Of a DNA stretch of 64,000 nucleotides, positions 9,363-51,300 are shown one piece after another. The notes beneath the pieces were generated by a model that was not told the origin of the DNA, made no database searches, and was given only the letters and a program-made list of their open reading frames with translations. Each line of letters opens with the position of its first letter. Positions within the stretch are counted from its first letter, which is position 1. The position numbers and the translations under genes are program-made. This stretch comes from Microlunatus phosphovorus NM-1 (GTDB lineage: Bacteria > Actinomycetota > Actinomycetes > Propionibacteriales > Propionibacteriaceae). The DNA is taken from positions 4,836,001 through 4,900,000 of the forward strand of contig NC_015635.1 of assembly GCF_000270245.1 (NCBI RefSeq), written 5' to 3'.

Positions 9363-9532
9363 AGTCTGTCCCGAAGGACGGGGTCAGACGCACGTGGTGC
9401 TGTCGTTCGAGCTTCGGTCGCGATCATCGAGCCCCCACGGTTGAGATGGTCAGTGTTGACATTGGACGACATCAACCGGCCTCACGTCGCGGTCCAATCG
9501 GCAACAAGTGGACGGCGGCGCGGGTTCGCAGC

Positions 9533-14030: not shown

Positions 14031-14056
14031 ATCTGCCAGCATAACTCATATGCAGA

Positions 14057-33207: not shown

Positions 33208-34770
33208 CTAGTGCCAAGTTATGCGGGGACCGTCGATCTCCAGAACGGGGGCGAGCTTCTGATCCGATCGCACGTGGTCCCAGTTCGCCCAAGGATTCTT
33301 CCTGTCGAGGAGTCGCCCATCGCTGTTATCAAATTGATCGGCAACCATTCCCAAATCTATCGCGAAAACATCGAATTTTCCTCGGGGCCCAATCCCCCGC
33401 TCGATTAGGTGGACTATCCGCTGGTCGAGTAGATCCAAGAGCTCTGGCTCCTCGTGGCTGTGATCACGATCAATCATGAATCTTCGCTGCCCAGACTCAG
33501 CGAAGTCCCTGAGTAAGCCGCTCAGAGACCGCGTGCGAGGACTTAACCTCGCTTGAGCTTCCTTCTCCTGAATGAAGTACTGGCGTGACGCCGAGGCAAT
33601 ATCAGCCAATGTTATACCTTCGGCCGGCCTGCATCGCTGCGCGGCAATGCTGCATATTGCGAGTAGATCACGCGGTATTCCCGCCGCAAAGTAGATTGCC
33701 TCGCTGAAGGCCGGGAAGTCAGTGTGGAAAGAAGTCTCGTACTGAAAGTATTCTGCCACCCAATCCCCCGAATATTTCTCAGTGTAGTAGGCGCGCACGT
33801 GTTGCTTTATGAGATGCTCGTAGAATTCGGTCGAAGGAGTTCGAGACGTCAGTCCATCCGTGAGGTATGAGTCGAGATCGAGGCCCGCGGAAATATCGGA
33901 TCCGAGCTCGACTCCGATATATCCATTCACCCCGGGAGCGAAGAATCTCGACCGACGCTCAACAGCCGCCAATTTGAGTATCATTCCGCGGCACGGCAAG
34001 AAGCAGCGCCTGAAGAAGTCAGCGACGATCGGCTGTATATCCAGTGGCATCGCGCTCCACTCGTCTATCAGAATCCAGAGTCGCCCAGTAGGTAGTGCTG
34101 ACACCACCGACTGCAAGGACCGCGCGATACCGGTGAAGTTGAGCACGGGCCTCTCTGTCCCCGTTGCTTGCCTTGATAACTTCTCACCCGCTTGGAGTTC
34201 ATCACCCAGTTTCGCTGCAGCTTGAAGGCCTTTCTCGCTCACCGTGAACGCGAACTCGGAAGTTGCGGTGTGCGCCCGAGAGACTTCGTTTGCAACGGTC
34301 ACGGAGCCGTCCGTGGTGATTTCGGTCGCCGCCGCGGCAAGCTTGTCCATTCCATTAACCAACGCTGTAATCTCCTCACCCTTATCGAGCAGATCCAAGC
34401 TGATGGCATAAAGGGCAGTATGCACCTCGCTGATGATATCTACAATCACGTGCAATGCGGCCAGCCCTCGGCCGGCCTCCGCGGAAAGGTAGTATCCACC
34501 TGCCGACCCGGTTAGCCGCAAGTCGATGTAGATTGCTGGCTGATCATCGCCCAGTAGTTCCTGCTTGAGATGATTGAGCGCGTGCGTTTTGCCAGTCCCG
34601 CGACGGCCGAAGAGAATCTGATGTTCTTCGTTGCGCAGGCGCGGCGCAAGTCCAGCTAAATGCACGAACGTGCTTCTTAACGACTCCTCGTCGCTGCGCT
34701 CGGCGCGCTTGGAAAGATGGGGCAGCGCAGAAATCCAGAGGCCCCTATCTGTCGGAAATCGCTTGGGCAA
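33208..34770 (-). CDS. ORC/CDC6-like P-loop ATPase
   Basis: A 520-residue ATPase. Walker A is ILFGRRGTGKTHALNHL near residue 55, Walker B is LWILIDEWSA near residue 235, followed by a sensor-like region and a helical/winged C-terminal part (LADIASASRQYFIQEKEAQA). The arrangement fits the ORC-CDC6/STAND-like ATPases common in defence islands; no effector domain is seen. The start is TTG at 34770, supported by AAAGGAG five bases upstream. GC is clearly lower than in neighbouring host genes. The ISAs1 insertion lies 76 bp upstream and may affect its promoter. Confidence 0.72.
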   Translation of the reverse strand: MPKRFPTDRGLWISALPHLSKRAERSDEESLRSTFVHLAGLAPRLRNEEHQILFGRRGTGKTHALNHLKQELLGDDQPAIYIDLRLTGSAGGYYLSAEAGRGLAALHVIVDIISEVHTALYAISLDLLDKGEEITALVNGMDKLAAAATEITTDGSVTVANEVSRAHTATSEFAFTVSEKGLQAAAKLGDELQAGEKLSRQATGTERPVLNFTGIARSLQSVVSALPTGRLWILIDEWSAMPLDIQPIVADFFRRCFLPCRGMILKLAAVERRSRFFAPGVNGYIGVELGSDISAGLDLDSYLTDGLTSRTPSTEFYEHLIKQHVRAYYTEKYSGDWVAEYFQYETSFHTDFPAFSEAIYFAAGIPRDLLAICSIAAQRCRPAEGITLADIASASRQYFIQEKEAQARLSPRTRSLSGLLRDFAESGQRRFMIDRDHSHEEPELLDLLDQRIVHLIERGIGPRGKFDVFAIDLGMVADQFDNSDGRLLDRKNPWANWDHVRSDQKLAPVLEIDGPRITWH

Positions 34771-34846: not shown

Positions 34847-36193
34847 CAGGGCTTGTTCAAAGTCGTGGTTGCGGCGTGGTGTCGGGTTGACACGCCATGG
34901 GTGAGGTATAAGCCGGGCGGGCACGGTGGATACCGGGATCGTGGTGGGTGCTTGACGTCCACTGCCGATCGATCGGAGTCCTGCCGTGCCCGCACCCGTA
35001 TCTTCTCTCATCCCGGCCGCTGATGCGCTGCGCGCCCATCAGGTCGAACCCGGTCACGGTGTTCCGGTCGAGGTGTGGGAGGTGTTGTCGATCATCACCG
35101 ATCCGCGGGGCCGGCGGGGCCGCCGGTATGAGCTGGCCACCGTGCTGGTGGTCGCGTTGGCCGCGGTGGTCGGCGGATCACGGAGTCTGGCTTCGATCGC
35201 CGGATGGGCAGCGGATCTGCCCACCTGGCATTGGCCACGGTTGGGGATCACCCGGCGGCCGCCGAGCCTGTCGACGATCCGCCGGGTGCTGTTGCGGGTC
35301 GACCCGGAGGTGGTGGACGCGGTCCTGCACGCCTGGCTGGCCACGCTGACACCGGTCTCGTCGCGGTGGCGGGCGGTCGCGGTGGATGGCAAGACCTGCC
35401 GCGGCGCCCGCGGTGTGGATGGGTCGAGGGTGCATCTGTTCTCGATCGTCGACCATGCCACCGGGGTGCCGTTGGGGCAGGTCAACGCCGGCGGGAAAGA
35501 TCATGAGATCGCCGCGTTCGCGGCGGTGTTGGACCGGATCAACCTCAACGGCGTCATCGTCACCGCCGATGCTCTCCACACGCAACGTGGCCATGCCCAC
35601 TATCTGCACCGGCACGGCGGCCGGTACGTCTTCGTGGTGAAACGGAACCAGCCCACCTTGTACGACCAGCTCGCCGGGCTCCCGTGGAGCAAGGTGCCGG
35701 TCGCTCATCGTGTGGTGGAGAAAGGGCATGGGCGACGGGAGTCCCGTACCCTGCAGCTGACCGGTGTCCGGGCCGGGATCGGGTTCCCGCACGCCCGGCT
35801 CGCCGGCCGGATCGTGCGGAACCGGACCGAGACCGCCACCGGCGAGACCACGCAGGAGATCGTCTATGTGGTCACCAGTCTCGGCTGGTCAGACATCGCC
35901 CCGGCCGACCTCGCGACCTTGGTCCGTGGTCATTGGAGCATCGAGAACAAGGTGCATTGGGTGCGTGATCTCACCTTCGACGAGGACCACTCCACCGTGC
36001 GCACCGGCACCCTGCCCCAGCTGATGGCAACCCTGCGCAACACTGCGATCGGACTCCTCCGACTCCGCGGGAAACACACCAACATCGCCGCCGCGACCCG
36101 CAGCCTCGGTCGCCAAACCGGCCAACTGCTCGACCTGATCGATCACGCCCAGGTCACACCAGTCACAACAGAATCAACTTTGAATTGACCCTG
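34847..36193. mobile_element. ISAs1-family insertion sequence, complete
   Basis: 1347-bp element bounded by imperfect 17-bp inverted repeats: left CAGGGCTTGTTCAAAGT (34847-34863) and right ACTTTGAATTGACCCTG (36177-36193), 13 of 17 matching. It is flanked by perfect 10-bp direct repeats, as expected for ISAs1. It holds one intact transposase gene on the plus strand. The perfect duplication and intact gene point to a recent insertion. Confidence 0.9.
34986..36188 (+). CDS. ISAs1-family transposase
   Basis: A 400-residue DDE transposase. N-terminal DUF4338-like H_repeat region ([20 protein letters not shown]), first catalytic Asp in [11 protein letters not shown], second in [15 protein letters not shown], Glu in [19 protein letters not shown]. 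Complete and in a single frame with a GTG start. The stop lies inside the right inverted repeat. Confidence 0.95.
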
Positions 36194-36203
36194 GATGCAT
36201 GGT
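36194..36203. repeat. Right target-site duplication of the ISAs1-family element
   Basis: GATGCATGGT, identical to the copy at 34837-34846. Confidence 0.9.
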
Positions 36204-36760
36204 CGTTGTTCGCCAGGTCTTACGGACGCCGGACTGCGTCGTGGTGGTGCAAGGGATCGTTGGCCCCGCGGTTGGTCGCAGGCGGCGAGGTTGGTGGGCG
36301 AGAGAGTTGACGTACAGACCGGAAGGCTCGCAGGCCTGAGGCGGCACCGTTGCAGACATCCCGGGGTCCCCGCGAGATGGACAGCCGGCGACGAGGTCTA
36401 CGGCGCCGACCCGGCGTTGCGGACTGTAGCCCGTCGGTACGGTCTCGGCATACGCCGACGCTCGGCGACATCGACATGCGCAAACTCCGCCACGACCAGA
36501 ACCGCACCCACCAGACCTACGGGAAGTAGCAGCTCAGGTGGCCTCGGCAACCAGCCCGGGCCCCCCGACGTCGATCACCGGCAGTACCAACAGCGCCGAG
36601 CAGCAGTACCAGGCGCTGGACTACAGGTACCACCCAGCGCTACGCGTCAGCAGCATCGCCTGGCTGACCCGTGGGAACCGACGGCTGCGTTACCGCGGGG
36701 TGGAGAAGAACAACGCCTGGCTGCATCACCGATTGGTTGGCCGGGCAGTGTCCTAGAGAC
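36204..36760 (+). pseudogene. Remnants of two older transposases
   Basis: Around 36340-36460 one frame reads GVPARWTAGDEVYGADPALR, a typical piece of IS701-family transposases. Around 36595-36756 another frame reads RLRYRGVEKNNAWLHHRLVG, typical of the C-terminus of actinobacterial IS5/IS1182-type transposases. Neither has a complete gene. They fill the gap between the ISAs1 element and the NTPase gene. Confidence 0.65.
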
Positions 36761-36763
36761 ACA

Positions 36764-39700
36764 TCACTTGTGCTTCTTGTTGACCTTAATCAGAGCCTCG
36801 CGCTCGTCGTAGGAGTTGACGATACCCTCCCGCTTGAGCCGTTCAAGAAGCGCCCGGTCGGCGGCCGTGTTCGGAATCTTTGGCTTTTCGTATCCGACCG
36901 CGGTCAACTTCGCATAGGCGTCGCCGAGCGCGGACAAGATTGTGAACAGCTGATCACGGCCCATCACGCCGAGGTGCGGCTCAATGAGCAGGACGATCTG
37001 CTGCGCCGGAACGCCGCCCTGCGCCAGCTTCTGTACGACATCAGGCAGGAGCCGACTCCCATGTTGCGTGGCGAACCTCGCCAACTCGTTCAGGCCACGG
37101 CGGTCGGCCACCTCTGCATACGCCGCGGCCTGCTCGACAACCGCGTGCTTGACTGCCGCGTCGATCTCGTCGTCCACAAGCAGCGCGGCAAGGTCTGGCC
37201 GCACCAGTTCCGGCGTCATATAGCCGGCGAACGTTGTCGACGCCCGGATGAACGCCTTCCGTGTTGGCCAGTCCGTTGCCGCGAGATGTTCGTACGACTC
37301 CGCGTTGTCTGCAATGAGGTTGTGCTTCAACAGCAGCGCGAAGAGTTCTCCCGTCTCGGCCGCAATGGCACCAACATCGAGAAGGCTCGCCGGGTCGAGA
37401 CTTGCGACCAGGTCCGCACGCAGCACGGGCGACGGGAGCATATCCTGAGCCGCCAGAATCGCCACGGCCAGGGTGACCTTCGACTCCTCGTCAGCACCGC
37501 TGGCTTCGGTGATTTTCCCGGCAGCCGTGAGCACATTGGCAAGCTGGAGATCGATCGACCCCTGGGCGGTGACGTAGCCGCTGACGTTGCCTAAAGTTGC
37601 CGGGAAGCGGCGATACTCGCCCAATGCCGGCCACGCCCTCTCCGACACAGCGGTGAGATCCTCGACACGGCACTCGGGAGCAGCGCGCTCGACAACGTCG
37701 CCGAGACGATCCAATCCATGCTCGAGCACATCTTCGATCACGGCAACGAAGTACTCGTCCGCGTCGACAGTTGTGGATGTGGCCCCTGTAGCATCCAGGT
37801 AGGTACTGACGTGCCTGAGCACATAGTCGTAGACCGTCTCATTCGCATCGCGGATGACGTCAAGGGCCACGCTCTCGGTGTTGCCGATGGCAAGCGCGAG
37901 GTTCTCCTGCGTGACCTCGTACAGGTTGCGCGACACGAACGACGACCGCACCTGTTGGCCGAGCGGCTCCAGGCGAGGCACAGTGACGCAGGCGTCCGCG
38001 AAGATCTCACCAATACGCTCCGCCTGGGCTGACTCGGTCTCGTTGAACGTCAGCGCCGCAAATTCGGCATAGTGCGTTGCCAAGTAGCCAGATACCGCAG
38101 CATCTGTTCGCTGCTTAGCCGACGGAAGGTGCGCCAGTGCGACATCGACCAACTGCAGCCGCGATGCATCATCCAGTTCAGCCTGGCTCACGAGGTACTG
38201 GAAAACACGAGAGGAGACGGTTGTGAATCGCTCAATGAACCGCTGACGCTGCTCACCGGCAGAGAGATACGCTTGGAGGAATCGGGTCTGACTTTCCCCG
38301 AGGGCCACGAAGGAACGGATCATGATGTCCGCCGCGTCGACGTCGGTTGCCAGGAGACGGTCGAGGACGGCGATGTTGTAGAGCGCCGGTTCCTTCAGCG
38401 CGCTCTTTCCTCGCTCGCGGACAACGGCGTCGACATCGTCTGGGTCAAGCCCGAAGTGCTCGTCCATCAGGTCTCGCTCAACGTGATGGATGATGAAGTT
38501 CATCGCCGCCGGGCTCACACGGTCGCCGTGGAACGTCGAGGTATACAGCGTGAAGTTCCGGTTGATGTACCCAGCTCTAACAAGCTGGTAGGCCAAACCG
38601 GGCTTGAGGAGCCACTCGGCAACTGACTCGAACGATCGAGCGGCTTCCTCGTAGGTGACTCGGAACTCCGGTCGTCTGACGAGGTCACCAAGGTCGGCGC
38701 TCCGCAGGAACGTGATGTCCTCTGTCTTCTCGGCGATCTGCTCGGTCAAGGCTTCACTATCCGCATCGCTCCAGCTCTCAGCATCGAGCGGATCGCCAAG
38801 TGCGCCGACGAGACTGTCACGAGTGAACGACAGCTGCTGACCGTAGTCGTTGCGCCACTGGAGCACTGGACTTCCATCGGGGGAGACGAAATCTGTCCAG
38901 AACTGCGCTCCCTTGAGATCATCCTCAGACTTCACAGCACCGGCTATCGAGTACGTCGCGTACTGTGTTCGGAAGCCCGCCGCCTGCACGGTCCTTTGCG
39001 CGTGCGCCAGCAATCGCCGACCCAGCTGGGTGCTGCGAGTAGCAGCTCCGTTGATTCGCACGAGCCGCCGACGCAACGCACGCCGTTCGCTCTCGATCCG
39101 CCTGATGTTCTCGGCAACCAACTCACGACTGACCTTGTAGATGACATCCAGCGTGCTAGTGCCGAGCCGGATCTTCTCGAAGTCGGTCAGGTGGGTGCTT
39201 TTATAGAGCATCATTGCAAAGAGTTCGGTCTGGCTCAGATCGAGCTGCTCGCCGTCGCCGGAGAAGATCCGATCGCGGAAGACGATGAACTCGTTGCGCA
39301 CGTTCTTGAGCAGCCGCATGTCGGGGACGTACTGCGCAGCCAGATCGAGCAGCTCTGGCTCGACCTTGTGCTCGATCTCGCCTAGTAGCTGTGCCGCGAG
39401 GTTGCGGGCACTTCGGTGCGTGATGAAAGGAACAACCGGGATGACGAGGTCGAAGAACTTTGTGCGGTTGGCGCGCACCGCCTCGGCCTGCGCGGGATCG
39501 TCCGTCGCGTCCGGCTCAACCTTGCGACCTTCCGCCTCAAGACCAATTCGGTCGAAAATGCTGTCCTTGATCGCGTAGATGAACCGGATCCGCTTCTCGA
39601 CCTGTGGCGAGGCGTTGAGCAGCGTGTTCAGCGCACGGAGTGTCTCGAAGATGTGGGAGTCGTTGAAACGGTCGATGTCCTCGAAGATGACGATGTCGCG

Positions 39701-40402
39701 GCCCGAAACATCGAAGAAGTAGACGATCTCGTCCAGGTACTGGTCGAAGTAGGACATCGCGCTATCGTCGAGCGTGACCGTCGCTGAGCCCGCAGACAAC
39801 TCTTTGATGCGGAGCCTCCCGTAGAACAGCGAGCGCACCACCAAGACGGCGCCCGCTGCCACACCCCAGACCATCAGGTGAGTCCAAGGGCCGATGTCGT
39901 TCGGCGCTGTGAACACCGAAGCGATCTGCGCCGTCCAACCGGTCAGCAGGAAGATGATCGCAGCGGCGAGCCCCAGCACAAGCGCGGTGCCGATCTCTCG
40001 TCGCCAGCCGAAGCGTTCGATGCGTCGGAACCGTGAGCTGGGTGTCTTGCTCGGGTCTTCGCGGTAAAGTAGTTGCTTGACGATCTCCTGCTGAATGCGG
40101 TTGGTCGGCGTCGTCGCTTGGATAGGCACCGAGTCATCGATCTTGGACGCCTCAATCGGCGCGAGCGTCGACAGCGAGAGTTCAACAACGCGGCCGTCCT
40201 GCCGCCTCGCGACTTCCCGAAGAATGCTGCTCTTACCGACGCCGTAGTTGCCGGAGAGCGCAATGTTTCGGATCTGCACGTCCGCCAAGGCAGCTTCTAT
40301 GGCCGCGACGTAGCCGCCATGCTCTGCCTCGAGATACTCGGGCGTCAGAGGAATGAGGTTCCAGGGGCTACTGACTTCCGGGCGCTGGGCACTACGACTC
40401 AT
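36764..40402 (-). CDS. KAP/YobI-like membrane P-loop NTPase coupled to the hsd operon
   Basis: A 1212-residue protein. Walker A is ALSGNYGVGKSSILREVARR near residue 50; Walker B is IVIFEDIDRFNDSHIF near residue 245. Two hydrophobic helices lie between them (ALVLGLAAAIIFLLTGWTAQ and LMVWGVAAGAVLVVRSLFYG), the layout of KAP/YobI-type NTPases, which places the ATPase at the membrane. The remaining 900 residues are helical and unassigned. ATG at 40402 overlaps the metallopeptidase stop by 11 bases, making this the last gene of an uninterrupted hsdM-S-R operon. KAP-type NTPases are often linked to phage defence; the role here is inferred. Confidence 0.75.
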   Translation of the reverse strand: MSRSAQRPEVSSPWNLIPLTPEYLEAEHGGYVAAIEAALADVQIRNIALSGNYGVGKSSILREVARRQDGRVVELSLSTLAPIEASKIDDSVPIQATTPTNRIQQEIVKQLLYREDPSKTPSSRFRRIERFGWRREIGTALVLGLAAAIIFLLTGWTAQIASVFTAPNDIGPWTHLMVWGVAAGAVLVVRSLFYGRLRIKELSAGSATVTLDDSAMSYFDQYLDEIVYFFDVSGRDIVIFEDIDRFNDSHIFETLRALNTLLNASPQVEKRIRFIYAIKDSIFDRIGLEAEGRKVEPDATDDPAQAEAVRANRTKFFDLVIPVVPFITHRSARNLAAQLLGEIEHKVEPELLDLAAQYVPDMRLLKNVRNEFIVFRDRIFSGDGEQLDLSQTELFAMMLYKSTHLTDFEKIRLGTSTLDVIYKVSRELVAENIRRIESERRALRRRLVRINGAATRSTQLGRRLLAHAQRTVQAAGFRTQYATYSIAGAVKSEDDLKGAQFWTDFVSPDGSPVLQWRNDYGQQLSFTRDSLVGALGDPLDAESWSDADSEALTEQIAEKTEDITFLRSADLGDLVRRPEFRVTYEEAARSFESVAEWLLKPGLAYQLVRAGYINRNFTLYTSTFHGDRVSPAAMNFIIHHVERDLMDEHFGLDPDDVDAVVRERGKSALKEPALYNIAVLDRLLATDVDAADIMIRSFVALGESQTRFLQAYLSAGEQRQRFIERFTTVSSRVFQYLVSQAELDDASRLQLVDVALAHLPSAKQRTDAAVSGYLATHYAEFAALTFNETESAQAERIGEIFADACVTVPRLEPLGQQVRSSFVSRNLYEVTQENLALAIGNTESVALDVIRDANETVYDYVLRHVSTYLDATGATSTTVDADEYFVAVIEDVLEHGLDRLGDVVERAAPECRVEDLTAVSERAWPALGEYRRFPATLGNVSGYVTAQGSIDLQLANVLTAAGKITEASGADEESKVTLAVAILAAQDMLPSPVLRADLVASLDPASLLDVGAIAAETGELFALLLKHNLIADNAESYEHLAATDWPTRKAFIRASTTFAGYMTPELVRPDLAALLVDDEIDAAVKHAVVEQAAAYAEVADRRGLNELARFATQHGSRLLPDVVQKLAQGGVPAQQIVLLIEPHLGVMGRDQLFTILSALGDAYAKLTAVGYEKPKIPNTAADRALLERLKREGIVNSYDEREALIKVNKKHK

Positions 40403-41132
40403 GCCGTGCCCCCGCGTCCCACTCCTCGCTCGACAGTGGCGCATCGTTCAGCTCGTCCCGACGCGCCCGCCAGTCGGGCATGTGCAGATTCATGAGTTCG
40501 ATGAAACGTGCGTTGTGGGTGCGCTCGATGAAGTGGATCAGTTCGTGAACCACGATGTACTCGAGACAGCGTGGGTTCTTCTTCGCCAGTTCGGGGTTGA
40601 GCCAGATGGAGCGCGACTCAAGGTGGCAGGTGCCCCACTTGGTCTTCATGTGGCGCACGACGACCTTGGCGGCTTCTTCACCGATGATCGGCTGCCACTT
40701 GGCCAGCAGCGCCGGGACAGCGGCCTTGAGCTCTTTGCGGTACCAGTGATCGAGTGCCGCTCGGCGCTGGTCCTCGTCGTAGTCCGCGGGAGTTGTCAGC
40801 CAAAGGGTCTTTCCGGCAACGCTGACTCTCGATCTTCCATGCCGTGAGACGTCCAGACGCAGGCGCTGGCCCCACACGTAGTGAGTCTCGCCCGAGAGCA
40901 TGCGACGTTCGGTCTGGCGCTCGGCGTTCTGCAGTTGCTCGCGTTGCTTCTTGATCCACGGCAGACGCTGCACGACGGCCAAGCGGATCGCGTCCTCGTC
41001 GACGCGGTGCGGCGCCGCAACCCGCACACGTCCGACCGGCGGGTACACGGAGATGTGCAGGTTCTTGATGTCCTTATAGATGACATCGATCCTGAGCCCG
41101 GCGACGGTGAGGTAGGCATTAGCGGTACTCAT
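40392..41132 (-). CDS. YgjP/M48-type metallopeptidase associated with type I R-M
   Basis: A 246-residue protein with the zinc site HELIHFIERTHNARF (HExxH plus downstream His-N) near residue 195, preceded by KTKWGTCHLESRSIWLNPEL, the YgjP/DUF45 hallmark. It has no signal peptide, so it is cytoplasmic. Such genes often sit beside hsdR, with an unknown role. It overlaps the end of hsdR by 14 bases and the start of the NTPase gene by 11, so it is made in step with both. Confidence 0.85.
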   Translation of the reverse strand: MSTANAYLTVAGLRIDVIYKDIKNLHISVYPPVGRVRVAAPHRVDEDAIRLAVVQRLPWIKKQREQLQNAERQTERRMLSGETHYVWGQRLRLDVSRHGRSRVSVAGKTLWLTTPADYDEDQRRAALDHWYRKELKAAVPALLAKWQPIIGEEAAKVVVRHMKTKWGTCHLESRSIWLNPELAKKNPRCLEYIVVHELIHFIERTHNARFIELMNLHMPDWRARRDELNDAPLSSEEWDAGARHES

Positions 41133-44100
41133 CCCGTGCCTTCACCAATTCAAACAGTTCATCGAAGCGGTCAAACCCGTCAGGGAGTACGCGGCGAAGC
41201 TCGCGGGCGAGGGCGCGCTCCTTCATCCGGTTGCCGACCCAGCCGTGCTCTCTCTGGCGCGTCACGGTGCAGTCGACCACGGTGGCTAGATTGGGATCAG
41301 CGAAGTGGAAGTCCACTAGTGCGCGCTGCGCGCCGTTCCTGGCCCACTCGGGATAGACCGTGTCGGACTCCTTCTTGCCGACCTTGGTTGCGAGTTCGAT
41401 GAGCCGTTGCAGGTACGCCTTGTAGTCTAGGGCGTCCTGACGGCGCTGTTCGATGAGCGCATCAAGCAACTCGGACATCCGGTCGTAGTAGCGCGGGTTC
41501 AGCGCACGCTCGTCGACGATCGTCTTGCGGACGTTGTTGACGATCGTCTCCGCTGCTGCTTCGGGGTCCTTGCGAATGTTCGTCGGCAGAGCACTAATCG
41601 CATCATCGCCGCGCTCGACGATCAGGTCGACGAGCCCTTTGTCGAAGGTGGCCACCACCTCGGACGGGTCGGCCTGGATGTAGGTGTCGAGCAGCGCGCG
41701 CATGCCTGCCTCGAACTGCTTCACGTCGATGTTCTCGCCAGCACCAAGCTCGACCTCATCACGGACGGCGACAAAGTGCGCCACCTCGTTCTTAATCGCC
41801 GCAGCCTCGGCGGGCGTGTACCCGGCAGCATCCATGTCGTTGGCGAGCGCCGCGTACGCGCGAACCAAGCCCGAAACGCTCTTATAGAGTTCGACACGCT
41901 TGACCTCGTTGGCCTTAATCTGAGCGGCGTCTCCCTGCACCGATGCCACGAAGTAGTGCTGGTACTCCAGCGTCCCCTTCGGCGGTGCAACGGGCTCGAC
42001 CAGGGCGCGGATCTTCTCCAACGCCTCGTCGAGATCCTGACGGCCCTGGTCGACGCGGTCCTCGAGTAACCCCTCGACGTCCTTCTCCTCGTAGCCGTCA
42101 AGAGCACCCGAGGTGTAGTCGGTGATCGCGGACTCCAGCGAGTTGAATAGGTCGCGGTAGTCGATGATGTAGCCGTAGGTCTTGTCGTCGCCATCCAGGC
42201 GGTTGACCCGGCAGATGGCCTGGAACAGGCCGTGGTCGCGCATCTTCTTGTCGATGTAGAGGTAAGTGGCACTTGGAGCATCGAACCCGGTCAGCAGCTT
42301 GTCGACCACGATGAGCAGCCGCATCTGGCCAGGCTCCTCGATGAATCGGCGCTTGACTTCCTTCTCGAACTCTTCGATCCGCCCGACAGCCAGGTCGGCA
42401 GGCACACCGAAGAAGCCGGCCAGCATCTGCCGATATATGTCGTACTGGCGCAGCTTCTCGGTCGCGCCCTCACCCGAGTCCTCCTTGGAGATGTCGCTCG
42501 GGTTCGGCACGTAGCTCGTGACGATGGCGACCTTGCCCTTGAAGCCGGCGTTGACGAACATCTCGTAGAATTTGCACGCCTGGTAAATGCTCTCGCCCAC
42601 GAGCATCGCGTTGCCGCGGCCGCTCACCAAGCGGGGTTGGGTCTCCATGTCCAGCAGGATGTCCTGGACGATTTGCTTGGCTCGGGGCTCGGCGGACACG
42701 ACCTTCTGCATCGTGCCCCACTTCTTCTTGAGGCGAGCCTTGCTGAGGTCGGTGAGGCCTTTGGTCTTGGCCTCGAACCACTTGTCGACCTTCTCCGGAC
42801 TGGTCAGGTCCTGCTCAATGTTGCGCGCCTCATAGCGCAGGTCGAGCACGACGGCGTCCTCGACCGCCTCGTCGAACTTGTAGGTGTGGATGAACGATCC
42901 GAAGGTCTCGATACTGGTCGCCTTGTCGGCTTTGAGCAGCGGCGTACCCGTGAAGCCGATGAACATCGCTCCGGGCAACAGTTCCTTCATCGCCCGGTGC
43001 ATCTTGCCCGACTGTGTGCGGTGCGCCTCATCGACGAAGACGAACAGGTTGCCCTTCGGCGTGAACCCGACAGGCACCCGCGAGTGCAGTTCGGCGATGA
43101 AGTCCTCACTGTCCCGGTCAACGTCGCGGTCGTCGTTGCCACCGCGGAATTTATGGACGAGGGAGGTGATCAGCCATGGGTCGTGCTTGTTGATCTGCGT
43201 CAGCAGGTCCGCGCCAGAAGTCGTGCGGTAGATGCTCTCGTTGACCCCGCCGAAGACCTTCTCGATCTGTTCGTCGAGCTCGGTGCGGTCGGTGATGATC
43301 AAAACGCGCGACTTCGGCTGGTGCTCACGGATCCACTTTGCAAGCCACACCATCGTCAGGCTCTTGCCCGACCCCTGGGTGTGCCAGATGATGCCGCCCT
43401 CACGCTTCGCAATGCGCTCCTGAGCTGCCTTCACGCCGAAGAACTGGTTGTGGCGGGCAGTCTTCTTCACGCCAGCGTCGAACACGATGAAGTCGTGGAT
43501 CAACTCGAGGAGGCGATCCTTCGAGCACATCTGCAGGATCGCCCTGTCCAGTGGCTCAACTACGTCGGCACCGACCGTGCTGTGCTCGGGCTCCTTCCAG
43601 GCGAGCCAGTACTTCTCCGGTGTCTCGATCACGCCGTAGCGCAACCCCTCGACGTCGTTGCCCGCGAACACGATCTGGACGGTAGAAAAGAATGGCCGGA
43701 TGAAGTCCGTCCGCTGATTGCCGATGTTCTGACGGATGCCCTCAGTGACGCTCACCTTCGAGCGCTTGAACTCAACGACACCCAGCGCCAGGCCGTTGAC
43801 GTACAGCACGACGTCGGGACGCTTGTTGTGCGCGCCAGCGATCGCGACCTCTTCAGCCACGACGAAGTGGTTCGCTTCGGGGTTGTCCCAGTCGATAAGC
43901 CAGACCGTCTCGAACTGGTTGCCCACGACGCGCTTGACCTTCACGCCATAGCGAAGCAGATCGTAGACTTCGCGATTAGCCTCGTACAGCGTGCGGGCTC
44001 CACCGACCGACGCAGCCTTGGAGAGTTCGTTGATGGTCTTGCCGACGATCTCCTCGTCGTAGCCGCGCGCCAGAAGGTTGTCCCGAAGGTAGGCGACCTC

Positions 44101-44220
44101 GATGTTCGAGTTCGTTGCGCGGTCTTCCCAGCTGCCGCCGTACTCGTAGCCGAGGCGCTCGTGGAAGAACTTGACGACGCGATCCTGCGTCCTACGTTCG
44201 ACCTGTCCGACCGTGCTCAT
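41119..44220 (-). CDS. hsdR: Type I restriction endonuclease subunit R
   Basis: A 1033-residue motor/nuclease. N-terminal PD-(D/E)xK nuclease (RPDVVLYVNGLALGVVEFKR), superfamily 2 helicase motif I (HTQGSGKSLTMVWLA), motif II (FVFVDEAHRTQSG), motif III (MFIGFTGTPLL), motif VI region (QAICRVNRLDG). All catalytic residues appear intact. ATG overlaps the hsdS stop (ATGA). Confidence 0.96.
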   Translation of the reverse strand: MSTVGQVERRTQDRVVKFFHERLGYEYGGSWEDRATNSNIEVAYLRDNLLARGYDEEIVGKTINELSKAASVGGARTLYEANREVYDLLRYGVKVKRVVGNQFETVWLIDWDNPEANHFVVAEEVAIAGAHNKRPDVVLYVNGLALGVVEFKRSKVSVTEGIRQNIGNQRTDFIRPFFSTVQIVFAGNDVEGLRYGVIETPEKYWLAWKEPEHSTVGADVVEPLDRAILQMCSKDRLLELIHDFIVFDAGVKKTARHNQFFGVKAAQERIAKREGGIIWHTQGSGKSLTMVWLAKWIREHQPKSRVLIITDRTELDEQIEKVFGGVNESIYRTTSGADLLTQINKHDPWLITSLVHKFRGGNDDRDVDRDSEDFIAELHSRVPVGFTPKGNLFVFVDEAHRTQSGKMHRAMKELLPGAMFIGFTGTPLLKADKATSIETFGSFIHTYKFDEAVEDAVVLDLRYEARNIEQDLTSPEKVDKWFEAKTKGLTDLSKARLKKKWGTMQKVVSAEPRAKQIVQDILLDMETQPRLVSGRGNAMLVGESIYQACKFYEMFVNAGFKGKVAIVTSYVPNPSDISKEDSGEGATEKLRQYDIYRQMLAGFFGVPADLAVGRIEEFEKEVKRRFIEEPGQMRLLIVVDKLLTGFDAPSATYLYIDKKMRDHGLFQAICRVNRLDGDDKTYGYIIDYRDLFNSLESAITDYTSGALDGYEEKDVEGLLEDRVDQGRQDLDEALEKIRALVEPVAPPKGTLEYQHYFVASVQGDAAQIKANEVKRVELYKSVSGLVRAYAALANDMDAAGYTPAEAAAIKNEVAHFVAVRDEVELGAGENIDVKQFEAGMRALLDTYIQADPSEVVATFDKGLVDLIVERGDDAISALPTNIRKDPEAAAETIVNNVRKTIVDERALNPRYYDRMSELLDALIEQRRQDALDYKAYLQRLIELATKVGKKESDTVYPEWARNGAQRALVDFHFADPNLATVVDCTVTRQREHGWVGNRMKERALARELRRVLPDGFDRFDELFELVKARDEYR

Positions 44221-45434
44221 GCTGCGTCCTCCTTGACGGCCAACCGGGTGCGCCCGCTGAGCAGCTCGTGCATCATGCCCTGCTTGATAGCGCGGGTGGC
44301 GTCGAGGCGGCGTTGAAGGGCAGCGATCTCGTCGTCGGCATCGATCAGGACCTGTGCGATTGCATGTTGCTCAGGAAGTTCTGGAACTGTGACTTCGAGC
44401 CCTGCAAGGACTCGCCAGTTGATGTGCACCACAGCGTCTCCTTGACCACCGCGCGCTTTCTGATTCGCCAACTCGGGGGTATTGAGGAGTGTCGCCAAGT
44501 AGACGGGGTCGTACTCGGTGCCGCGCAGAACTATGATGTCGCCGCCCGCAACCGCTGGAGTGTCCCCAATGTAGGCAACGTTCATGCCGATCTCGGCTTT
44601 CGTCTCGCCCGATCCCGCAAAGAGGATGTCTCCCGACCGAAGCGGAAGAGCCATCGCTGCCACCGACCCGCTAACGAACGACACTGTTGAAATGGTGTAG
44701 TCCTCGAATGTGGTGTAAATCTCGCCGTATCGGATACACGGCACCCCGGCCTGCCGCACCTCGTCGCGCTTGATTCCGCCGCCCCGCAGGAAGGTACCAA
44801 ACGTCGACAGGCTACGTGTTGACCATTCATCGGTGAAGCCGCGGAGGCGCGTGCGGCCAGTCAGCAACTCCTGCATCACGCCTTGCTTGATGGCTCGCTT
44901 CTTCACTATCGCATTTTCAAGCGAAACGATGAGGTCATCCAAATCCCAGAGTACCGACGCGACGCGGGCCTGCTCCTCAACACTGGAGGGGATCCGAACC
45001 GTAAGTCCGCGGACGATGTCGGAATTGACGTTCATCTGAGACCCGGACTGTCCTGCTTCACGAAGGCGAGGCTCGGATGCCTTCAGTAGGTACAACATGA
45101 ATCTCTTGTTTGCTTTGAGATTCTCAAGCGAGACGAAGCCGTCATGGATGCAAGCGGGGACTCCGGTAATCACGGGAATACCGACAGTCGCAGCAATGCT
45201 CATGATGAGAGTTCCAGGCTTCAGGTATCTACTACGCGCAACACCATCAGCAGATAACGCTTGCGTTGTCGCGAGTAGAGTGCGGCCGTTCGAGCGGTTG
45301 ACATCTGCTATGCGAACCCATCTCACATCACCGCTGCTGTCGAACCAGCGAGGCGAAGCGATGGGTCGCGGCGATGCACCGCGCGACACGTGCGCGAGGG
45401 CACCAATTGTTGTGGTCGTCCATGTTGATGTCAT
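44217..45434 (-). CDS. hsdS: Type I restriction-modification specificity subunit S
   Basis: A 405-residue specificity subunit with two target-recognition domains. Each half ends in a conserved helix: VKKRAIKQGVMQELLTGRTR near residue 195 and RAIKQGMMHELLSGRTRL at the C-terminus. This internal duplication is the usual HsdS architecture for a bipartite target. The ATG overlaps the hsdM stop. The recognition sequence cannot be read from the protein. Confidence 0.95.
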   Translation of the reverse strand: MTSTWTTTTIGALAHVSRGASPRPIASPRWFDSSGDVRWVRIADVNRSNGRTLLATTQALSADGVARSRYLKPGTLIMSIAATVGIPVITGVPACIHDGFVSLENLKANKRFMLYLLKASEPRLREAGQSGSQMNVNSDIVRGLTVRIPSSVEEQARVASVLWDLDDLIVSLENAIVKKRAIKQGVMQELLTGRTRLRGFTDEWSTRSLSTFGTFLRGGGIKRDEVRQAGVPCIRYGEIYTTFEDYTISTVSFVSGSVAAMALPLRSGDILFAGSGETKAEIGMNVAYIGDTPAVAGGDIIVLRGTEYDPVYLATLLNTPELANQKARGGQGDAVVHINWRVLAGLEVTVPELPEQHAIAQVLIDADDEIAALQRRLDATRAIKQGMMHELLSGRTRLAVKEDAA

Positions 45435-47887
45435 CTCGCCTCAACCCCCATAGCGGCCAGATGAGCCGTGACCTTCACGCTCAGCGCCTCAACCTCCGCG
45501 TCGAGGTCGCCCACGGTCTGCTCGTAGCGAGCGCCGAGCACATTCAGGCGCTGCACGAGCTTCTGGATCAGCGCGGCGCGCTCGGCCTGGACTCCGGCGA
45601 CGACGCGGGCACCCCACTTGTCGTCGATGACGAGCCTCTGGATGTCGGCGGTAGTGAGCTGCGCATACCGCTTGAGCGTCAGCTGGTCGAGCTTGAGACG
45701 GACTTCCTTGGCAGCCTTCTTCGCGGCGGTCTCTCGCTTGAACAGGCCGACGACATGGACAAGTGCCTTGATCTCGTCACCGTCGGCACCTTCGGCCCTC
45801 GCTGCTTTGAGTCGGTCAGCGACTGCCTTGTTGGTGACCTTGCCGTCGTCGTCGGTTGCGTCGAACAGCAGTCCTTCTTCGACGGCGTGCTCTTCGACGT
45901 ACTCCTCGATCGCCTGGCCAGCAGTCTCCACGCCTGCCTCCAGTGCATCGAGTTCCGCCTGTTCCTTGGCGAAGTAGCGGGCGACGATCAGTTCAGGCGA
46001 CACAAGATCCATGACCCAGCGCTGCGCCTTGACACCGGTGCCGAAAGTGATGTGTGCAGTTTCGTACTTTGGCTTCTTGTTCCTGTCGTATCCGAGGATG
46101 CGGGCGGCGCGTGGCTTCGCTGCACCGTCCCAGCCCTCGCCCATGATCAGGGCGACGTCATCGTGCATGACGTCGTTCCAGTAGCTCATCAGCTGTTCGT
46201 ACACGCCGTACTCGTCGATCAGCGGGCGCAAGCGGAAGGCATCGAGCAACGCGTCACCGAGCTCAGCGATGAGGTCAGCGGGACGTGTGGTGCGCGTAAT
46301 TCCTTGGAGGAGAGCCTCATGGATGTTCCACCAGTGTTTGACGATCCCGTTGCTGCTCGTCTTGAACGTCTGGTACTCGGCAGAACCTGTGATCGTCCTC
46401 TGGATATGGGACTTGTCGATGGCCAGCTCACTGTAGCCGTCACGCAACGGCCGAAATAGAGTCGAACGCAAGCTGGGGAAGGCGTCCCAGTAGGCCTGGA
46501 GGGCGTCGAGGTCGCGGTTCGGGATGCCGCCGTTGAGGTGGGCGTGCAGATCCTGGATGTCCTCGGGCTCGGAACCGTCGATGTAGCGAGGAATGTTGAG
46601 GTTGTAGTCGTTCCTCAGGTCGGCGATCTCGGCGAGCGGCACCATCCGCGAGTAGCGCTCAATCTCCTTCTGATTCGCGAAGGCATCAATGATCTGGTGC
46701 ATGTCACGCGGGCGAAGACGATTCTTGTTTCCGTCCTTGGCGAAGCCCTTGCTGGCATCGATCATGAAGATGCCGGTCCTAGCCTGCGCGTTCTCCTTGT
46801 CGAGCACGATGATGCAGGCCGGGATGCCGGTGCCGTAGAACAGGTTCGCCGGCAGGCCGATGATCCCCTTGATGTAGCCGCGCCCAATGAGTTCCTTGCG
46901 GATGGTCGCCTCAGAGTTGCCACGGAAGAGCACGCCGTGCGGCAGGATGACGGCCCCCTTGCCAGTGCTCTTGAGGCTCTTGAGCATGTGGAGCAGGAAG
47001 GCGTAGTCGCCGTTCTTCTCCGGCGGGCGACCGTAGCCGTCGAACCGGCCGTACTCGTTCTCCAGGCCGTTGTTCCAAGACTTCACGCTGAACGGAGGGT
47101 TGGCGACGAGGTAGTCGAAGGTCTGCAGCACGCTGCCCCTGAGGAACTGCGGGCTCGTAATCGTGTCGCCCTGACGGATCTCCGCCGTTCCGCTCCCGTG
47201 GAGGTGCATGTTCATCACAGCGAGGGCACGGGTGGCGTTGTCCCTTTCCTGGCCGTAGATCGTCAGCCCGTTCGGTGCCGCGTCGGCAACCTTGAGCAGC
47301 AAGGAGCCAGACCCGCAGGTCGGGTCGTAGACGGTTGCCGACTTCGGGGTGTCCGGTTTGATGCCGATGAGCGCAGCCATCACGCGCGATACCTCGGCCG
47401 GCGTGTAGAACTGACCCTTGCTCTTGCCCGACTCGCTGGCGAAGTGACGCATCAGGTACTCGTAAGCATCACCCAGCAAGTCGTCGCCCTCAGCACGGGA
47501 GCCGGTGAAGTCGAGATCCTGGAAAATGCCGATCAGCTTCGTCAGTCGGTCGACGAGCTCCTTACCCTTACCGAGTTTGTCGGGGTCATCGAAGTCGGCG
47601 TTGTTTATGACGCCCTGCAAGTCGTTGGCGTCAGCCAGCTTGCGGATGGCGACGTTGACCTGCTCACCGAGGTCGGGCTTGCCCTTCAGCGCGACCAGGT
47701 CATTGAACGAGCCGCCCTCGGGCACCTCAACGTCGGCGTATGGATCTGCTTTGGCCTTGTCCGAGACGTACTTCACGAACAGCAGCGTCAGGACATAGTC
47801 CTTGTACTGGCTTGCATCCATGCCGCCACGGAGCTCGTCCGCTCCCGCCCACAGCGAGCTGTACAGGTCTGACTTCTTCAGCGCCAC
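45431..47887 (-). CDS. hsdM: Type I DNA methyltransferase subunit M, long form
   Basis: An 818-residue N6-adenine methyltransferase. SAM-binding motif I is YDPTCGSGSLLLKVAD, catalytic motif IV is YLVANPPFSVKSWNN, and the N-terminal HsdM_N helical domain is present. About 300 extra C-terminal residues beyond the usual 500 carry coiled, charged helices (for example AKKAAKEVRLKLDQLTLKRY). GTG start at 47887 with AAGGAG about 11 bases upstream. First gene of the five-gene operon, so its promoter should lie in 47888-47950. Confidence 0.95.
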   Translation of the reverse strand: MALKKSDLYSSLWAGADELRGGMDASQYKDYVLTLLFVKYVSDKAKADPYADVEVPEGGSFNDLVALKGKPDLGEQVNVAIRKLADANDLQGVINNADFDDPDKLGKGKELVDRLTKLIGIFQDLDFTGSRAEGDDLLGDAYEYLMRHFASESGKSKGQFYTPAEVSRVMAALIGIKPDTPKSATVYDPTCGSGSLLLKVADAAPNGLTIYGQERDNATRALAVMNMHLHGSGTAEIRQGDTITSPQFLRGSVLQTFDYLVANPPFSVKSWNNGLENEYGRFDGYGRPPEKNGDYAFLLHMLKSLKSTGKGAVILPHGVLFRGNSEATIRKELIGRGYIKGIIGLPANLFYGTGIPACIIVLDKENAQARTGIFMIDASKGFAKDGNKNRLRPRDMHQIIDAFANQKEIERYSRMVPLAEIADLRNDYNLNIPRYIDGSEPEDIQDLHAHLNGGIPNRDLDALQAYWDAFPSLRSTLFRPLRDGYSELAIDKSHIQRTITGSAEYQTFKTSSNGIVKHWWNIHEALLQGITRTTRPADLIAELGDALLDAFRLRPLIDEYGVYEQLMSYWNDVMHDDVALIMGEGWDGAAKPRAARILGYDRNKKPKYETAHITFGTGVKAQRWVMDLVSPELIVARYFAKEQAELDALEAGVETAGQAIEEYVEEHAVEEGLLFDATDDDGKVTNKAVADRLKAARAEGADGDEIKALVHVVGLFKRETAAKKAAKEVRLKLDQLTLKRYAQLTTADIQRLVIDDKWGARVVAGVQAERAALIQKLVQRLNVLGARYEQTVGDLDAEVEALSVKVTAHLAAMGVEAR

Positions 47888-48191: not shown

Positions 48192-48313
48192 GCTCGAAGG
48201 CTCAGCCACCCGGATCCGCCCACGTATCCACTCCCCCACCCACGACTCTTGTAGGTAAGCCCAGACCTACGCCACGATGCGTCGAGTCAGGATTGTCGAG
48301 CTCGGGAGGGCCG

Positions 48314-51300
48314 ATGAGCGGGAGCCAGCAGGAGGTGGTGCCGCAGCATCTACGCGCCCGGCGCTATCTGTGGGGACTTGCCATCGCGCTCGCGGTGGCA
48401 TGCACCGTTGCGGTCGGCGAGATCAATGCCCAGTCCGGTCGGATCGTCGACGAACAGGGGCGGGCCTGGCCGTTGTCGGTGCTGGTCGGGCCAGGATGGA
48501 TCGAGCGGGGCGCGGGCTGGCCCGAGGTGCTCACCAGTCTGATCAATGACCCGCTCTATCGAGCCCTGCTCAGCTGGTTCCTCGTCATCAATGTGGTCTT
48601 CATCGTCTGCTATGCCGCCGTGCTCGCCGGACTGGTGGCCGCCCTGTTCCGGACCGGACAGGCGCGGATCGCGATCTGGGCGTTGGTGGCGATCCTGGTC
48701 CTCGCCGATCTCGTCGAGAACCTCTGCATCCTGGTGCTGATGATCACCAGGTCGCCGTCCGGACCGGTGGGACTGCTGTGGTGGTGCACCACAGCCAAGT
48801 GGGTTCTTCTCGTCCTGGTCGCGGCGATCCTGCTCCTTCGCTTCGTCGTTCCCCAGTCCAAACAGGAAGGCGCCGACGGCGGCGGCGTCAACAGTCCGAA
48901 AGCGGTTGTCGTCCGGAGTCTGCGAGCGCTGATGCATCATCGCTTCTCCGTCGCGATGATCATTCCGCTGGCCGTGCTCACCATGCTGTCGGGCAGCGCG
49001 ATCCTCGAGCAGCTCCCCGACGTCCAGCGCCAGTGGGTGTCCAACGGACTCCAGGGCTGGCTGCAAGCCGGCTGCGCCGTCATCGCGCTGCTCGGGGTCG
49101 GCTTCCTGCTCGAGGCACTCGGCCGGTTCCGTACGGGTTGGGCGGTGCGCCACCAGATCAACCCGGCGAACCCGGGCTCCAGAACAGCGCCCACATCCAC
49201 GACCCAGAAACCCGAGAACCCAGGGAAGCCCGAGAACTCCAGGGTGCCCAAGAAGCCCTGGGTCAGACCCCTGATCCGCCGCCTCCTCGAGGATCTCTTG
49301 CTGATCCTCCGCCTGCTCGTCGAGCTGGTCACCAACCCCCGGCGGCTGGCTGCTCGGCTGCATCATCTGGCCGGCAAAGGAGACGCGCTGCTCAGCCTGT
49401 GGTTGCTCGGTATCGCGATCCCGGTCGTCGCCGCGCTGATCGCCCGAGTCTTCATGCCCCCGGCCAACCTGCTGAGCACCCGACTGCTGGTGTTCTGCGC
49501 CGTACCGCTCGTGGTCGTGATGGTCTCCTGGGTCCTGCGCCGAGCCTGGCAGATCCGCGAAGACTGGTACATCCCCGATCGCCCGCCCGAGTTCACCGCG
49601 CAGGAAGTCAGTCTGATCAGATTCATCGGGCGGGCATTGGCGCTCACCGCTGTCACGGTCGGTGGGATCGGCCTGATCCGCTCCTTCCTGTCGGTGGTCG
49701 CCCTCGGACCCGAGGTCACCGGCGTCGGGCTCGGGTTGTCGGTCCTCTTCCTGGCCATCGGCATCGTGGCGGTCGTGCTGCCGTGGGTGATCAGCTGGGC
49801 CTTCGTCGCCGGAGAAGTGCCGGATCCGATGGCTTCGATGGGGAGCACAGCGCCGGCCCGGCTGGCCCGGCGGTGGGCACTGCTCGGCGGCGTGCTGGCG
49901 CTGTTCCTGGCCATCTCCGTGTTCCCGGGGCAAGCCGCGTACGCCGGTGTCTCCGCGGTCACCATCACCTCGCTCACCCTGCTGATCGGCATCGCCGCCT
50001 CGGCCGGCCTGCTGATCCAGGAGCGCCCCACCGCCGAGATCTTCCGGCTCCTCGGCTTGCGGCGTACGCCGTTGGTCAGCGTCCTGGTCCTCGCCATCGT
50101 GCTCGCCGGTCTGACCGTCGGCGGCAGCACCATCCACCAAGTGGTCGACACTCCCGCTCAGGACTCGCCGCGGCGGCCACCGGTCGGCGACATGGTCCAG
50201 ACCTGGCTGAAGCAATCCGGCGGCTGCGAGGTCGACGTGAACGGCCAGCGCGCCCGGCCGATGATCATGGTGGCCGCCGAGGGCGGCGGGATCCGGGCCG
50301 CCTACTGGACCGTGAAGGGCCTGGCCGCCCTGGACAGCGGGACCGGGGGCTGCGGCGCCCACTCCGTGCTCTTCTCCGGCGGCGCCAGCGGTGGCTCCAC
50401 CGGTCTGACGGTCGCCCGCTTCTCCGGTACGCCAAGCGATCCCGGCACCGGGCGGGCCGTCGAAGCCGTCAAGGCCATGGCCGAGCCGGACACCCTCGCC
50501 CAGGCAGTGATCGGCACCTTTGTCCGCGATCCCCTCTACGCTGCGACCGGCGTCCCACTGGGCAGCTCCGGGGTCGCACCGGCCGGCACCTGGGCCGATC
50601 GCGCCCGGCTGATCGAGCTCGGCTGGGATCGATCCGCCGTCGGCCAACCATGGGGAACCCAACCCTTCCTGAGCGCCGATTCGACGCTCTCCCCTGCCAC
50701 CGGTCCACTGGTGATCAACTCCAGCAGCGTCGCCAGCCAGTGCCGGGTGTGGGTGAGCCAGCTCGACCTGGAGCAGCCGGCGGCCTCCGACGGTGAGCAG
50801 CAGTGCGACCACCAGGTCAGCCCGGGCGCCCGGACGGTCGACCTGTTCGCTGCGTACGGCCCGGCCGGCGGCACCGGCGACCACTGCCTGGGCACCATCA
50901 CCGCCTCCACGGCGGCGCTGCTGACCGCGCGCTTCCCCTACGTCACTCCGGGCGGCGTCGTCGGCGGCTGTGACGTCGACGAGTCCCAGAACGGCTTCTG
51001 GCCGCGTACCCAGCTGATCGACGGCGGCTACATCGAGAACACCGGACTGGCCACCGTCACCGACTTGTCCGCCCAGTGGCTCGCCCAGGTGCGCGGCCAC
51101 AACGAGGACGTCGTCGCAGGCCGGTCGAACGAGCCGCTGATCATCCCGTTCGTCGTCTTCTTGACCAACGAGCAGGCCACCGCCGGCCGGCTCACCGAGC
51201 CCCCGGCACTGCAGAGCGAGTTGCTGTTGCCGGCGGTCGGTTATCTCCGCGGCTCGGCGACGCTGACCCGCACAGATGCCCTGCTGCAGCGGGTGTCGAC

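Follow-up and report, generated by a model that had tools for sequence, protein, structure and literature searches.

Why does an operon for a type I restriction-modification (R-M) system in Microlunatus phosphovorus NM-1 end in a gene for a large membrane NTPase, and how is that NTPase related to the restriction enzyme encoded ahead of it? The operon lies in the window, the stretch of 64,000 nucleotides analysed here, to which positions refer unless another locus is named.

Anatomy of the operon and its surroundings

The operon comprises five genes on the minus strand (Table 1). hsdM, hsdS and hsdR were assigned to their families by Pfam, PADLOC and NCBIfam, ygjP by Pfam, and the last gene to the YobI-ATPase family by Pfam together with the PADLOC model for Tmn. 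HsdM matches the Pfam models N6_Mtase (6.9e-101) and HsdM_N as well as PADLOC MTase_I (1174 bits), and HsdR matches HSDR_N, SWI2_SNF2 and T1R_D3 in Pfam and TIGR00348 in NCBIfam (542 bits). HsdM, HsdS and HsdR all contain the domains expected of a type I R-M system, and their lengths agree with those of relatives. A HELIH motif can be read in the YgjP-type protein.

Table 1. Positions of the operon genes, of motifs and predicted helices in the NTPase, and of neighbouring genes in the window.
Feature	Position	Strand	Length or basis
hsdM, type I DNA methyltransferase subunit	45431..47887	-	818 aa, GTG start
hsdS, specificity subunit	44217..45434	-	405 aa; Methylase_S, two stretches (Pfam)
hsdR, restriction/translocase subunit	41119..44220	-	1033 aa
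ygjP-type metallopeptidase	40392..41132	-	246 aa; Pfam YgjP-like PF01863, 9.9e-59
Tmn-like/YobI-type membrane NTPase	36764..40402	-	1212 aa; Pfam YobI-ATPase PF20693, 1.7e-114
Walker A GNYGVGKSS, NTPase residues 51-59	40226..40252	-	alignment of 9 sequences
Predicted transmembrane helix 1, residues ~134-155	39938..40003	-	hydropathy 2.32; model helix 121-142
Predicted transmembrane helix 2, residues ~171-193	39824..39892	-	hydropathy 1.80; model helix 159-181
Walker B IVIFEDIDR, NTPase residues 237-245	39668..39694	-	alignment of 9 sequences
DDE transposase, downstream of operon	34986..36188	+	Pfam PF13808, PF01609
Second AAA ATPase gene, weak ORC-CDC6-like/Sll1717-like	33208..34770	-	same variable region

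Consecutive genes overlap at every junction. Direct reading confirmed the arrangement described in the initial annotation, with four-base ATGA overlaps at hsdM/hsdS (45431-45434) and hsdS/hsdR (44217-44220), a 14-base overlap at hsdR/ygjP (41119-41132) and an 11-base overlap at ygjP/NTPase (40392-40402). An alternative upstream start for the NTPase at 40444 would give 1226 aa, but the alignment of relatives favours the start at 40402 (1212 aa). That the five genes would be made from one transcript is a fair inference from this layout. The coupling is not due to chance: the gene order recurs elsewhere and NTPases linked to restriction genes abut or overlap the gene that precedes them (see below).

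The operon genes have a G+C content of 0.59-0.63, against 0.67-0.69 for the flanking genes, and the operon was probably acquired horizontally. Downstream lies a transposase gene. Beyond it, the second AAA ATPase gene has the lowest G+C among the genes measured (0.562) and is possibly another defence gene. The flanking ramB-like and acylase genes are separated by ~4.5 kb in the related genome G005 and by ~20.6 kb in the window, which marks the region as variable; the G005 interval gave no blastn match to the operon, and the gene for a 1096-aa protein lies on a different contig there. No clean empty site was read in the neighbours. In the window this 1096-aa protein is encoded at 48293-51583 (+); it looks rich in hydrophobic stretches by eye and has no Pfam match, and at E 1e-20 two of the genus's 19 other genomes contain relatives. 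Separately, the stretch at 36195-36760 (+), straight after the NTPase stop codon, looks by eye like a decayed transposase end, so that the operon may be bordered at its 3' edge by an insertion element.

The terminal NTPase and its kinship to Tmn

In an alignment of nine sequences, G51, G54, G56, K57, S58 and S59 of the Walker A motif and E241, D242, D244 and R245 of the Walker B motif are invariant. Hydropathy and a structural model both place the two predicted transmembrane helices between these motifs. When 87 entries were searched, both Walker motifs could be located in 61 (the other 26 were left unjudged), and 60 of these 61 have two hydrophobic peaks between the motifs; the exception, L015, has one. 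The AlphaFold2 model, built from 44 sequences, covers NTPase residues 13-1212, its residue numbers counting from NTPase residue 13, and has a mean pLDDT of 84.6 and a pTM of 0.56. In it, the NTPase domain includes the two helices, long helices span 405-463 (model numbering), and the C-terminal half is mostly helical.

A fold search with this model returned mostly HEAT-like solenoids, with one match at E <=0.001 (Blm10); matches to RdrA and Avs3 were weak. The resemblance to RdrA of the RADAR system (Foldseek, 8hr8, probability 0.99, E 3.5e-3, TM 0.17/0.23) is one of fold only and does not indicate membership, given the weak score, 10% identity and a rank among many HEAT-like solenoids. The family profile matched no PDB chain by sequence. 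Pfam detected YobI-ATPase and AAA models only, and hence no nuclease domain. A tblastn search of 50,697 phage records gave no match to the NTPase, leaving a phage origin without support.

The PADLOC model for Tmn matches the window NTPase (4.8e-50, 168 bits in total) in two stretches, the better of which spans model positions 28-324 of 1273, so that the match lies mainly in the N-terminal NTPase part; the model also hits all six relatives scanned, again mainly in that part. A plasmid-encoded protein (L123, from a gene named pcar) gives a full match to this model, at 1291 bits. Aligned with this plasmid Tmn by hhalign, the NTPase family is homologous with probability 100 (E 1e-50) at ~21% identity over 1118 columns, with agreement clearest in the N-terminal part and less sure in the C-terminal part. 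Homology along the whole length is thus supported by hhalign, while coverage of the PADLOC Tmn model is low, and we therefore call the window NTPase Tmn-like rather than Tmn. Together, the PADLOC and hhalign results bear out the earlier description of a membrane NTPase that is kin to a defence protein and coupled to a type I R-M system.

Tmn is a KAP-family NTPase with two transmembrane domains that acts against phages in Escherichia coli, where it protects against several of them; the 2025 report calls its mechanism unexplored (PMC11846954). According to the same report, mutation of the phage DNA-modification gene nmad5 prevents sensing by Tmn and lets phages escape, whereas deletion of nmad5 does not (PMC11846954). 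Synergy between Gabija and tmn is mentioned in another paper (PMC12735699). Like Tmn, the window protein is a P-loop KAP/YobI NTPase with two predicted transmembrane helices and a long C-terminal part, and its relatedness to Tmn makes an anti-phage action likely. In contrast to the clade of the window NTPase, a recurrent cargo of R-M operons, the plasmid Tmn L123 lies outside any R-M operon in the annotated stretch.

Restriction genes and the NTPase in other genomes

Relatives of the NTPase were collected in one scan of an 84,980-species collection, and the best 80 of 153 were analysed. By tblastn and HMM search, 11 of these 80 loci have type I genes adjoining the NTPase in the same orientation, and two have type III genes near it; 69 are without type I genes and 67 without either. 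Five of the 67 (L042, L054, L077, L086 and L109) have less than 3 kb of upstream sequence, and restriction systems unrelated to hsd or type III genes escape this count. The initial annotation had named an NTPase found mostly without hsd genes as the observation that would speak against its model of an R-M-licensed effector, and 69 of the best 80 of 153 is just such a majority. The co-occurrence it pointed to does exist, since the five-gene order of the window recurs in four of these 80 loci, but it is not obligatory. Two of the four, in Actinomyces (L037) and Gulosibacter (L066), have exactly this order; those in Leucobacter (L044) and Nesterenkonia (L048) have one additional gene between hsdS and hsdR. 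In all four, inspection by eye showed an ORF of 17-21 codons just upstream of hsdM, behind a ribosome-binding-like site and with its end no more than a few bases from the hsdM start; in three of them the last codons read R-V-V-(A/V)-stop. No such ORF was seen by eye upstream of hsdM in the window. These short ORFs could possibly encode a leader peptide.

The restriction genes of the other linked loci are diverse. Five loci (L031, L036, L039, L049 and L050) contain a second, far more distant type I core, whose HsdM and HsdR are 27-29% identical to those of the window; the NTPase follows hsdR immediately in L031, L036 and L039 and one gene further on in L049 and L050. In Methylobacillus (L045) the order is hsdM-hsdS-NTPase-Schlafen-hsdR, with HsdM and HsdR 46-49% identical to the second core. 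The Bifidobacterium locus (L076) has yet another type I core, with hsdR split over two ORFs. Type III mod and res precede the NTPase in Brevibacterium (L061), and the Microbacterium locus (L041) is also type III-linked, its contig including just the end of res. In L031, L036, L039 and L045 the gene to which the NTPase is coupled is hsdR or hsdS, with no YgjP. Linked operons also house other guests: Hypoth_Ymh in L031, Abi_C in L050, a BstXI-like enzyme in L036, Schlafen in L045, an Abi_C gene after the NTPase in L066, and an AAA_13 gene after the NTPase in L037, a relative of which occurs in L076. AAA_13 is the Pfam family that includes PrrC.

Unlinked copies include close relatives of the window NTPase, 67-71% identical in Pseudomonas and Salinicola and 58-61% identical on three plasmids without hsd genes. 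Among 628 plasmid records with an NTPase match, the nine with at least 80% coverage were inspected; annotation and tblastn found no hsd genes beside the NTPase on any of the nine. Several NTPase plasmids have other defence-type neighbours, and on one counted as unlinked (L019) a restriction endonuclease and a DUF1156 gene are annotated no more than ~10 kb away. No hsd match was found near four copies from sampled genomes (L022-L025). N6_Mtase matches occur in 18 of the 24 genomes behind 23 unlinked loci and L061, a genome-wide figure that is not assigned to the loci themselves.

The restriction genes, for their part, have a life without the NTPase. In a phylum sample of 396 Actinomycetota genomes, 12 besides that of the window carry a close hsdR. 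ygjP lies directly behind it in 11, the twelfth contig stopping within hsdR, and the NTPase was found in none of the 12 stretches present around these genes. On plasmids, 526 records match YgjP, and six of the 12 matches listed are overlapped by an annotated HsdR gene. Judged by gene content, hsdM-hsdS-hsdR-ygjP is a core that is independent of the NTPase. There is consequently no sign that the peptidase serves the NTPase, and the earlier suggestion that it activates a component of the system is left without support. Two candidate arrangements were rejected on these counts: YgjP as a dedicated partner of the NTPase, because it follows hsdR without the NTPase in 11 of 11 relatives with sequence behind hsdR, and the five genes as one obligatory system, because 67 of the best 80 of 153 NTPase loci are unlinked and the NTPase accompanies none of the 12 hsdR relatives.

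The position behind ygjP is occupied by other genes in some of these relatives; of such genes, seven, from five loci, were scanned for families. In the type I operon of L113, the slot behind ygjP is taken by a CBASS-like module (1339-2833, -) of two genes, for a SMODS synthetase and a SLATT_4 effector, and the ygjP stop codon is overlapped by an in-frame start of SMODS. An ABC-3C protein gene begins 298 bases past ygjP in L120, and a NucS-like protein is encoded behind ygjP in L119. No family was found for the L111 gene or for the two L115 genes; an ATGA overlap joins the first L115 gene to ygjP. From these comparisons, hsdM-hsdS-hsdR-ygjP emerges as a core whose 3' end offers a slot for cargo.

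Core and NTPase have also been reassorted, as best local identities reveal. L066 and L037 share HsdM and HsdR at 92% and YgjP at 89% but the NTPase at only 68%, whereas L066 and L031 share the NTPase at 94% but HsdM at 30% and HsdR at 28%. Likewise, HsdM and HsdR of L048 are 73% and 80% identical to those of L044, with NTPases at 47%, and 30% and 28% identical to those of L049, with NTPases at 72%. In the DNA of L036 and L066, the 1.5 kb upstream of hsdM is 90.4% identical and the NTPase gene 92.9%, yet HsdM and HsdR are 29% identical and the hsd genes have no blastn similarity. The similarity is lost close to the first gene's ribosome-binding site and restarts ~30 bases into the NTPase gene. 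We read this pair as a replacement of the restriction core within a constant frame.

Several loci retain pieces of restriction genes. The Curtobacterium locus L051 has lost the core except for 43 hsdR codons upstream of the NTPase; dN/dS for its NTPase is 0.12 against L050, compared with 0.127 for the linked pair L049/L050. Beside the NTPase, small ORFs resembling the C-terminal end of type III Res (L076:9565-9855 and L037:13707-13982) suggest passage through type III operons, and are likely relics of exchange with them. In L045, a 90-aa relic of the hsdR N-terminus (13767-14039) separates the NTPase from the Schlafen-domain gene, with the long hsdR further on; insertion of cargo accompanied by a duplication would leave such a pattern. 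A short, interrupted YobI-ATPase match was also seen in L027 (genome G256, ~9073-9504, -), upstream of a type I hsdM-S-R.

To follow linkage through the family, a careful tree was built from 86 NTPase domains, namely those of the window, 79 of the 80 loci and six plasmids; it leaves out L099 (a broken gene), the plasmids L018, L020 and L021, and L022-L028. Linked and unlinked states require nine changes on this tree, eight of them forced by starred branches, with gains and losses not separated. As few changes arose in 2 of 500 label shuffles, so the linked state is clustered, and the nine changes are therefore to be read as gains plus losses and not as nine captures. On a quick tree, all 14 linked rows fall within one half of 44 rows, with none among the other 42. 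In 13 of the 14, the preceding gene ends <=80 bases before the NTPase start or overlaps it, whereas none of the 29 judgeable unlinked copies in that half (of 30) has a same-strand ORF of >=100 aa ending there. The NTPase of the linked clade thus has either no abutting upstream gene or an R-M operon. Among the 42 NTPases of the other half, 14 have a same-strand ORF of >=100 aa, a putative gene, ending near the start, so other operon partners may exist there. Three distant NTPases outside the linked clade (L107, L109 and L110) have the downstream neighbours c12 and c37 in common, and L107 and L110 also share the upstream neighbour c11; these may have another operon partner.

A proposed defence NTPase behind restriction genes

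With moderate confidence, we propose that the locus is a horizontally acquired type I R-M operon in which the last gene, behind a constant hsdM-hsdS-hsdR-ygjP core, encodes an exchangeable, second-line, Tmn-like defence NTPase. This proposal draws on features that the sequence shows: the anatomy of the operon, its overlaps and its recurrence, linkage that has changed repeatedly, and NTPases reassorted with R-M cores that are very distant. We read the NTPase as an autonomous back-up defence, probably abortive, that is carried as cargo in the manner of PrrC or DarTG2. Counted in favour of autonomy are the unlinked Pseudomonas, Salinicola and plasmid copies and the NTPase of L051, kept beside no more than an hsdR relic. 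Interchange of cores and the existence of close stand-alone copies argue against the NTPase being a subunit or dedicated effector of one R-M enzyme.

Other readings fit parts of the same evidence. Coupling may be a matter of convenient expression only, since 67 of the best 80 of 153 loci have no type I or III genes nearby, and it is conceivable, though unlikely, that an ordinary mobile defence gene has landed behind R-M operons and become coupled for its expression, a neutral hitch-hiker without any functional link. The plasmid copies without hsd genes agree with this, as does the variety of defence-type genes filling slots of the same operons (Hypoth_Ymh, Abi_C, BstXI-like, AAA_13, Schlafen and SMODS-SLATT). 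Neutral carriage sits less well with the clade in which an abutting same-strand ORF precedes none of 29 judgeable unlinked copies and R-M genes precede 13 of 14 linked ones, with the fact that the abutted genes include very different type I cores as well as type III, and with the frame kept around a replaced core in L036 and L066. A guard of the PrrC kind, which its own R-M complex would keep inactive through physical contact until binding of a phage inhibitor to the complex set it free, also seems unlikely to us. In its type I locus prrC, too, is an additional gene, both PrrC and PARIS are established guards of R-M (PMC12707154), linkage to type I and type III genes is repeated, and an AAA_13 gene follows the NTPase in L037, with a relative in L076; but contact surfaces should co-evolve, and a 94% identical NTPase accompanies HsdM and HsdR at 30% and 28% identity in L066 and L031, just as HsdM and HsdR at 92% accompany an NTPase at 68% in L066 and L037. 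Close stand-alone NTPase copies likewise count against a guard. Very improbable is the model first put forward for this DNA, of an NTPase effector licensed by this particular R-M complex with the YgjP peptidase activating one component. It would account for the overlap of all five genes at each junction and for the same order in four of the best 80 of 153 loci, yet YgjP occurs without the NTPase in all 11 hsdR relatives with a stretch behind hsdR, L031, L036, L039 and L045 have an NTPase coupled to hsdR or hsdS but no YgjP, and R-M cores are interchangeable. Licensing by a specific complex is disfavoured in particular because NTPases 93-94% identical sit behind cores only 28-30% identical.

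On this proposal, the NTPase would be co-transcribed from the hsd promoter and translated by coupling, and would work autonomously instead of forming part of the R-M enzyme. The alpha-helical solenoid would sense a phage-made cue, and an ATP-driven rearrangement at the membrane would arrest or kill the cell, a second barrier to phages that have escaped restriction. KAP and STAND-like NTPases offer the analogy for sensing by a solenoid and for an NTPase acting at the membrane. We can only guess at the cue, which might be a trait of restriction-beating phages such as modified DNA or an anti-restriction factor, because a published nmad5 mutation lets phages escape sensing by Tmn.

That type I operons contain guards and cargo is already established. 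PMC12707154 describes PrrC and PARIS as R-M guardians and R-M systems as coupled to accessory genes believed to be toxins. PrrC, of the EcoprrI type IC locus, is like the window NTPase an additional defence gene in or behind a type I hsd locus, and acts when restriction is inhibited (PMC12707154); it is, however, an anticodon nuclease, whereas the window NTPase has no Pfam nuclease domain and has predicted transmembrane helices. The RptR-RMS-DarTG-M48 (RRDM) island of E. coli similarly combines type I hsdM-S-R with a downstream M48 metallopeptidase gene and a defence module (PMC12255303), the two peptidases being compared by description. Its cargo, DarTG2, lies between hsdS and hsdR, at a site termed a potential recombination hotspot for defence systems (PMC12255303), while that of the window is an NTPase after the peptidase. 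A literature search that covered few subscription papers found no description of a Tmn or YobI NTPase within hsd operons.

More speculative, and rather doubtful in our view, is the possibility that the Tmn-like NTPase and the operon leader form a stable platform into which restriction systems plug, with the NTPase as a generic monitor of failed restriction. Very different systems, type I of several kinds and type III, would have been swapped in, and the NTPase would answer to a trait common to phages that defeat R-M, whatever the enzyme. Were this so, the NTPase would be a universal and not an enzyme-specific restriction guard. Natural pairs are available in which the same NTPase accompanies a different R-M core, or the same core occurs with and without the NTPase. 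The repeated change of linkage and the constancy of the NTPase under core replacement point to a functional link between restriction and a membrane NTPase.
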